From: Gammaproteobacteria bacterium
GTDB taxonomy: Bacteria; Pseudomonadota; Gammaproteobacteria; Steroidobacterales; GCA-2729495
Direction: 5' to 3'
Length of the DNA: 64,000 nucleotides
Assembly: GCA_014337915.1 (NCBI GenBank)
Contig: QUBU01000001.1
Span: forward strand, 124,001-188,000
Under the pieces are notes generated by a model. It saw only the letters and a program-made list of their open reading frames with translations. It had not been told where the DNA came from and made no database searches. Both the position numbers and the translations under genes were made by a program. Below, piece by piece: positions 43,449-45,231 of this stretch. Every line of letters starts with the position of its first letter. Position 1 is the first letter of the stretch.

Positions 43449-44192
43449 ATGGAAATCATTCCCGCAATCGACCTGCTGGGTGGGCGCTGCGTGCGCCTCT
43501 ACCAGGGCGACTTCGGGCGCGTCACCGAGTACGACACTGATCCGCTCGCCATCGTCGCCGGCTACCAGGCAGCCGGAGCACGCCGCCTGCACCTCGTCGA
43601 CCTCGACGGAGCCCGCAGCGGCGTGCCCGGCAACCTCGGCCTGCTGCGTAGCCTGGCCGCCCTCCCGGGGCTGCAGGTGCAGATCGGCGGTGGCATCCGC
43701 GAGCTGGCGACGGCGCAGATGCTCATAGCCGCCGGCGCCAGCCGCGTGGTGCTGGGCTCCGTCGCCATCAACGACCCGGCCATCGCCATCGGCTGGCTCG
43801 AGGCGCTCGGCGCGGAGCATGTGGTCCTCGCCTTCGACGTGCGCCTGCAGGATGACCAGGCCGGGCCGGTGGCGGTGACCCACGGCTGGCGCGAATCCAG
43901 CGGCCGACGGCTGTGGGAGCTGTTCGAGCTGTACCTCGCCAGCGGCGCACGCCATTTTCTCTGCACCGATGTCGGCCGCGACGGTACGCTGGCCGGCCCC
44001 AACAATGCGCTCTACGCCGAGTGCATGCGCCGTTACCCGGAGGCGCGCATCATCGCTTCCGGCGGCCTGTCCTCGGCGGCCGACCTGCCGGCGCTCGCTG
44101 CCACCGGCGTGACCGCCGTGGTCACCGGCAAGGCCCTGCTGGAAGGGCGCATCAGCCTCGAGGAGATAGGACGATTCTCGCGCGCCGGATAA
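43449..44192 (+). CDS. hisA: ProFAR isomerase
   Basis: A 247-residue TIM barrel that opens the ribose of ProFAR by an Amadori rearrangement. The first strand [22 protein letters not shown] holds the catalytic Asp (AIDLL); the [23 protein letters not shown] and [16 protein letters not shown] segments and the phosphate site IIASGGLSS follow. It lies 7 nt after hisH, and its last 19 nt overlap hisF, including most of the distance to the hisF ribosome site. Confidence 0.96.
44160..44176 (+). promoter_or_regulatory. hisF ribosome-binding site and ATT start codon
   Basis: GAGGAG (44160-44165) stands 8 nt upstream of an in-frame ATT at 44174. No ATG, GTG or TTG exists nearby in the hisF frame: upstream codons back to the hisA middle are not starts with homology, and the next ATG (44258) would remove the first barrel strand and the catalytic Asp. 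The site fixes the start of hisF at a non-canonical codon. Confidence 0.75.
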
Positions 44193-44941
44193 TTCCCTGC
44201 CTCGATGTCCGCGACGGCCAGGTCGTCAAGGGCGTCCGCTTCCGTGACCACCGCGTCATGGGCGACATCCTCGAGCTCGCACGCCGCTACCGCGACCAGG
44301 GCGCCGACGAACTGGTGTTCTACGACATCACGGCCAGCCCCGAGGGGCGCACCGTCGACCGCAGCTGGATCCATCGCGTGGCCGCCGTGCTCGACATCCC
44401 CTTCTGCGTGGCCGGCGGCATCCGCAGTGTCGCCGATGCCGAGGCCATCCTGCATCACGGCGCCGACAAGATATCGGTGAACACCCCGGCCCTGGCCAAT
44501 CCCGCGCTGATCGGCGAGCTGGCGCGGCGCTTCGGTTCCCAGTGCGTGGTGGTGGGCATCGACAGCCAGGCGCAGGATGGCGGCTACCGCGTGCACCAGA
44601 ACACCGGGGATCCGGCCCGGTCCGGAGAATCCGGGCGCGATACCATCGCCTGGGTGCGCGAGGTGCAGGAGCGTGGCGCCGGGGAGATCGTCCTCAACTG
44701 CATGAACCAGGACGGCGTACGGCGCGGCTATGATATCGGGCAGCTGCGCCTGGTCCGCGGGATCTGCAACGTCCCCCTCATCGCCTCGGGTGGCGCCGGT
44801 GCGGCGGAGCACTTTGCCAGCGTGTTCCGCGAGGCGCGCGTGGATGGCGCACTGGCCGCCAGCGTCTTCCACACGGGGACGATCGACATTGGCGAACTGA
44901 AACGCTATCTGCAGGGGCAGGCGGTCGAGGTCAGGTCATGA
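44174..44941 (+). CDS. hisF: Imidazole glycerol phosphate synthase, cyclase subunit
   Basis: A 255-residue TIM barrel (usual length about 256) joining PRFAR with ammonia from HisH to give IGP and AICAR. Visible: [19 protein letters not shown] (catalytic Asp near residue 11), [43 protein letters not shown] and the catalytic Asp/strand [14 protein letters not shown], then [13 protein letters not shown]. The family begins M-L-A-K-R-I-I-P-C-L-D; here the Met position is the codon ATT, preceded by a strong Shine-Dalgarno 8 nt away. It overlaps hisA by 19 nt and hisE by four. The ATT start is inferred from homology and spacing; sequencing error at one base is the simple alternative. Confidence 0.94.
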
Positions 44942-45231
44942 ACGACACAGGCATCGGTTATCTCCAGGAGCTGGAGCGGGTGATCGAACAGCGCAAGGCG
45001 GCGACAGCGGCGCAGAGCTACACCGCGAGCCTGTATGCGGCCGGGCCCTCGCGCATCGCCCAGAAAGTCGGCGAGGAAGCCGTCGAACTGGCGCTGGCCA
45101 GCGTCCAGGGCGATCGCCGGCGCACCCTCTCCGAGGCGGCCGATCTGGTCTACCACCTGCTGGTTCTGCTGCGCTACCACGACCTGACGCTGGCCGACGT
45201 CGCCCACGAACTCAGCCAGCGCCAGCGCTGA
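44938..45231 (+). CDS. hisE: Phosphoribosyl-ATP pyrophosphatase, stand-alone
   Basis: A 97-residue all-alpha MazG-like pyrophosphatase hydrolysing PR-ATP to [34 protein letters not shown] and the metal-binding [14 protein letters not shown] are typical. In enteric bacteria HisE is fused behind HisI; here HisE stands alone and no hisI (PR-AMP cyclohydrolase) occurs in the operon or window, so that gene must lie elsewhere. Overlap with hisF is ATGA; it is the last gene of the his operon. Confidence 0.94.

Follow-up and report, generated by a model that had tools for sequence, protein, structure and literature searches.

A probable non-canonical hisF start codon, conserved across much of an order of Gammaproteobacteria, shares its bases with the end of hisA

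The window, as we call the whole 64,000-nucleotide stretch of DNA analysed here, comes from a gammaproteobacterium of the order Steroidobacterales and carries hisA and hisF one after the other on the + strand. hisA occupies 43449..44192, with an ATG start and a TAA stop at 44190-44192. hisF, 255 codons followed by TGA, occupies 44174..44941 in the -1 frame with respect to hisA; the two genes overlap by exactly 19 nt (44174..44192, + strand). The codon in the place of the family's initiator Met is ATT (44174..44176, + strand), and it is followed by CTC GCG CGC CGG ATA ATT CCC TGC CTC GAT. The hisF Shine-Dalgarno sequence, GAGGAG, lies at 44160..44165 (+ strand), 8 nt before the ATT, and is read as Glu-Glu in the hisA frame. 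The last codons of hisA thus double as the Shine-Dalgarno sequence and start of hisF. The A of the ATT is the wobble base of a hisA Arg codon (CGA), and the two T's are bases 1 and 2 of a hisA Phe codon (TTC). A sequence-only reading of this DNA had placed the hisF start at this ATT, with the same codons after it and with GAGGAG 8 nt upstream at 44160-44165, and the letters of the window agree on all of these points. That reading missed the overlap with hisA, and the constraint from shared bases that is considered below goes beyond it.

The product is a full-length HisF. It scores 343.1 bits against NCBIfam TIGR00735 over profile positions 2-254 of 254, which passes the curated cut-off of 294.55, and hisF is single-copy in the window's genome (a search gave two hits, the second of which is hisA). 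Asp11 and Asp130, which we take to be catalytic with roles as in T. maritima HisF, are invariant in an alignment of 10 HisF sequences (A1). The neighboring genes have features of their own. The window's HisA scores 215 bits against NCBIfam TIGR00007, below the cut-off of 228.95, despite its place in a plain his operon. hisE, at 44938-45231, follows hisF as a standalone gene of 97 aa with a TIGR03188 match and without the HisI part; in E. coli, the HisI part is fused with HisE.

We compared the hisA-hisF junction across the order. HisF was searched for in 60 relatives and in 148 genomes of the order and gave a match in 56 and 134, respectively; 4/60 and 14/148 had no HisF hit at the thresholds used. 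The union of the matched genomes gave 144 junctions that were read. Extra regular-expression hits on hisA (L012, L088, L089 and L093) were left out of the hisF counts, and one genome (G019) with a second, partial hisF that also begins with ATT (L058) was counted once. The hisF start is ATT in 111 of the 144 genomes, ATA in 9, GTT in 1, ATG in 12 and GTG in 8, and it lies further upstream in 3 (twice in family f9 and once in f15), so that 23/144 have a canonical or upstream start. The remaining 121/144 have a non-canonical start and are spread over 10 of the 15 families and 44 of the 52 genera; in the window's own family (f1), the start is ATT in 37/37. None of these 121 genomes has ATC at the hisF start, and none has CTT or TTT. 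The lone GTT (locus L175 of genome G105) occurs amid relatives with ATT, in a genome listed with 5% contamination.

Outside the order, the picture is different. In the same class, 74 genomes gave a match (61 plus 13 new) and 43 were read (30 plus 13); all 43 have ATG, or GTG once (L096), placed at the aligned position or 1-2 codons before it. In a separate named collection, of which 80 of 590 loci were listed, five loci (L178-L182, under the names Chromatiales or Gammaproteobacteria bacterium) have ATT, and 75 have ATG, GTG or TTG either at the position itself or before it, as judged by eye. One of the five (L178) is probably not independent of a genome already in the order set (G065).

The ATT of hisF in the window is genuine, and is neither chance nor an assembly error: of the 144 genomes of the order, 121 have ATT, ATA or GTT at this position. 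For the ATT to be an artefact of sequencing or assembly, or the mark of a pseudogene, the same class of codon would have to have arisen falsely in all of these genomes, including single-contig assemblies such as G006, G007, G013, G075 and G084, and in the five ATT records of the named collection; the single-copy, full-length hisF likewise speaks against a pseudogene. We consider the chance of such an error negligible. The sequence-only reading had proposed comparing the junction among relatives, and had said that its claim would fall if relatives had a normal start and this base were unique to one assembly. What the comparison found was ATT or ATA in 120/144 genomes of the order and GTT in one more, that is, 120 further genomes beside the window's with ATT, ATA or GTT. 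Its central claim, that AUU is the real hisF start, is supported by this conservation and by the close Shine-Dalgarno sequence. From the spread of the non-canonical start we infer that it is old in the order. A HisF tree was built from 101 rows: 82 of the 144 genomes of the order, 14 sequences from outside it and the five ATT records of the named collection. It is poorly resolved, with 41/96 inner branches open, and does not recover the order as one clade. Its best topology implies 12 changes between canonical and non-canonical starts, although the starred branches alone force only 1.

Could HisF instead be longer, and begin at a canonical codon upstream? The sequence-only reading had held that no ATG, GTG or TTG offers an alternative. 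Downstream this is correct: the first canonical codon in frame is the ATG at 44258, codon 29. Upstream it does not hold for the window, where the frame is open to 43913 and includes a GTG within hisA, 153 nt before the ATT; it fits many relatives better, as they have an in-frame stop between. A mechanical listing of open reading frames gives a 342-aa frame from the GTG at 43913, which bears out the prediction that the real start would be overlooked by gene finding. The genomes of f9 and f15 show, moreover, that upstream hisF starts do occur in the order. Among the 121 genomes with a non-canonical start, however, reading back in frame from that start meets a stop, or the end of the DNA examined, before any canonical codon in 89; the in-frame stop is visible in 72 of those 89 and lies within 30 nt in 37. 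In these 37/121, an earlier canonical start is excluded, as no canonical codon separates the hisF start from this nearby stop. In the other direction, the first canonical codon downstream is beyond the catalytic Asp11, or absent from the DNA examined, in 117/121. The other 4/121 have a canonical codon inside the first 11 codons of HisF (TTG at codon 10 in three of them, and a canonical codon at codon 6 in G108).

Selection for initiation at the hisF start is visible in the aligned sequences, both in the first base of the start and in the Shine-Dalgarno sequence. Across the 121 non-canonical genomes, the hisA codon that lends its third base to the hisF start stands for ten different amino acids. 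Its last base is nevertheless A in 120 of these genomes, where codon usage in these loci would predict 13.3. Since the relatives are not independent, 120/121 is not to be read as a simple probability; with one genome per genus, the same test gives A in 44/44 against 4.4 expected. Likewise, Phe in HisA requires only NTT, yet the first base is nearly always A (ATT 111, GTT 1, CTT and TTT 0). HisA codon -3, which forms the second GAG of the Shine-Dalgarno sequence, is GAG in 119/121 and GAA in 2/121, whereas GAA makes up 46.8% of the 793 Glu codons in the same loci. The full GAGGAG is present in 67/121, and the overlap between hisA and hisF is 19 nt in 109/121. By these sequence comparisons, hisF qualifies as a gene with a conserved AUH start and, in many genomes, no canonical start able to serve.

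These signs of selection also bear on two other explanations. An upstream start leaves the selection on the A of the ATT unexplained, and together with the in-frame stops this makes a longer HisF very unlikely. A -1 slippage at the end of hisA could yield a HisA-HisF fusion in which the ATT is merely an internal Ile codon, and the -1 frame of hisF relative to hisA and the overlap of the two frames are what such a fusion would need. A slippery heptamer of the form X XXY YYZ in the hisA frame, however, is present in only 2/121 genomes, and slippage accounts for neither the kept wobble A nor the Shine-Dalgarno sequence. No conserved RNA fold of note was found at the junction (RNAalifold -1.2, 121 rows). 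We judge slippage to be even less probable than an upstream start. Assembly error, upstream start and frameshift fusion were rejected on the order-wide conservation, the in-frame stops and the rarity of the heptamers, respectively.

The identity of the start codon follows the HisA residue encoded over it. Where the hisF start is NTT, this residue is Phe (112/112), and where it is ATA, the residue is Tyr (9/9). An NTG at the hisF start forces Cys in HisA, or Trp where the second HisF codon starts with G (as in G063), and ATC would place Ser there. A single G-to-T change turns the HisA codon TGC (Cys) into TTC (Phe) and the HisF codon ATG into ATT together.

If the order favours an aromatic residue at this place in HisA, the preference might show itself wherever the start codon does not dictate the residue. 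Twelve genomes of the order allow this comparison, and 11 of them have F, Y or W: F, F, F and Y in family f2, four W in g37, Y in G083 and two W in f9. The twelfth, of f15, has R followed by F. Five of these 12 genomes were placed by eye, and one row of the HisA tail comparison (L009) is a wrong open reading frame. Outside the order, where the HisA tail columns were aligned by eye, five E. coli-type HisA tails lie clear of the hisF start: the residue is Cys in Photobacterium (L184 and L185), Colwellia (L193) and Aeromonas (L206), and Val in one further locus (L271, by eye). L183 does not belong among these examples of a free Cys, as its Cys is tied to the ATG of hisF itself. With F, Y or W in 11 of the 12 genomes whose HisA residue is set independently of the hisF start, an aromatic residue near the C-terminal end of HisA seems to be favoured in the order, and it is the start codon that seems to yield. 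Ten genomes of the order (eight in f13, G043 and G135) combine NTG (ATG or GTG) with Cys in HisA, which indicates that the aromatic residue is preferred but not indispensable. In 8/8 of the f13 genomes and in most E. coli-type HisA tails, Trp directly follows the Cys. Such Cys-Trp tails could mean that either of two neighbouring places can hold the aromatic residue, or that the column is off by one.

Based on these comparisons, we think it likely that HisF is initiated at AUU (AUA in some relatives) within the end of hisA, and that the unusual codon persists because its bases also encode a residue of HisA. Ribosomes ending hisA, or loaded at GAGGAG just upstream, would begin hisF at AUU with initiator tRNA, and the initiation of HisF probably depends on translation of hisA. 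At the HisA end of the bargain, NTT or NTA would supply the Phe or Tyr that the order appears to favour at that C-terminal position, whereas NTG would supply Cys (or Trp), and one G-to-T change would have swapped HisA Cys for Phe and HisF AUG for AUU. We infer from the sequences the initiation with fMet at AUU, the role of the HisA residue as driver and the order of events. The stronger proposal, that selection on the HisA residue both drove hisF to AUU or AUA and held it there through much of the order, with the start codon hostage to the overlapping gene, is a possibility that we put forward tentatively and rate a little short of probable.

Alternatively, AUU might be kept for regulation. 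In such a scheme, HisF synthesis would be weak, sensitive to IF3 or strictly dependent on hisA translation, and this would set the ratios of HisA, HisF and HisH. There are precedents in the AUU start of infC in E. coli and the GTC start of sigR in Streptomyces (as described in the excerpts of PMC9410913 and PMC5472188 used here), and the conserved Shine-Dalgarno sequence and overlap are compatible with coupling. The sequence-only reading had pointed to infC as well, and the infC of the window does start at ATC (61580-61578, - strand) with GGAGG 8 nt upstream, as it had claimed. Thirty genomes of the order were sampled for infC; one gave no hit and two (G010 and G048) were unreadable, leaving 27 read by eye, in which the infC start is ATC in 20, ATA in 5 and ATT in 2. 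In the 21 of these genomes that have a non-canonical hisF start, infC starts at ATC in 17 and ATA in 4 (by eye). Because infC appears to use ATC in 17/21, AUC looks usable in these genomes, yet hisF has ATC in 0/121.

A purely regulatory account would have to explain this absence of ATC from hisF in genomes whose infC mostly has it. It would also have to explain why NTT always comes with F in HisA and ATA with Y, why some lineages have hisF with GTG or ATG, and why HisA has an aromatic residue even in genomes where the start codon does not constrain it, a pattern not expected from regulation alone. The D[YF]GK motif of IF3, moreover, does not follow the type of hisF start. An altered IF3 was considered as the cause of the unusual start and found no support, as DYGK and DFGK both occur with and without a non-canonical hisF start. 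One genome of family f9 (G044) has a second, divergent IF3-like gene (L306, 154.7 bits). IF3 control of hisF is plausible as such, but we regard regulation as the reason for keeping AUU as rather unlikely, and favour the bases shared with HisA.

Few genes with a conserved AUU start are described in the literature consulted here; in E. coli, infC and pcnB are said to be the only ones (in the excerpt of PMC9410913 used here). Among the matches listed in a search of the open-access literature, no report of an AUU or ATT start of hisF was found by title or abstract opening. A metabolic gene with AUU over 10 families, together with an apparent coding conflict as the reason, suggests that the identity of a start codon can yield to an overlapping protein under coupled translation. 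Why AUU is tolerated becomes testable through one-base changes at the hisA/hisF junction. There is a practical consequence as well: gene finders that accept only ATG, GTG and TTG will put the HisF starts of this order in the wrong place, and if the explanation is true, other long co-directional overlaps may conceal conserved non-canonical starts that annotation pipelines have mis-assigned.

Comparison with known systems shows what is shared and what is particular to hisF. Like hisF, infC has a conserved AUH start (AUU in E. coli, ATC in Streptomyces; excerpts of PMC9410913 and PMC5472188), and the infC of the window also has a close Shine-Dalgarno sequence. The start of infC is explained by IF3 autoregulation, whereas hisF is a metabolic gene whose start is shared with an upstream coding sequence and in which AUC was not seen. 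The second AUU-start gene of E. coli, pcnB (PMC9410913, citing Binns and Masters 2002), is unlike hisF in that the excerpt of that paper used here describes it as non-essential and mentions no overlap conflict. As a further AUU gene in the window's own genome, pcnB was set aside, its start not being placeable from sequence. sigR resembles hisF in having a rare non-canonical start that is conserved, in this case genus-wide (GTC in 32/34 Streptomyces and GTT in the other two), and it has an extensive ribosome-binding site (excerpt of PMC5472188). Repression of the sigR GTC start by IF3 was shown by experiment, according to the same excerpt, whereas the hisF start is distinguished by spanning 10 families and by sharing its bases with hisA.

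There is also a likeness in the arrangement of the genes. Enterobacteriaceae and their kin (for example, E. coli L186 and Serratia L187) have the identical 19-nt overlap of hisA and hisF and the same placement of the Shine-Dalgarno sequence. In E. coli, with the hisA stop at +16, hisF starts with ATG and the residue over it in HisA is Cys, whereas in the window hisF starts with ATT and that residue is Phe.
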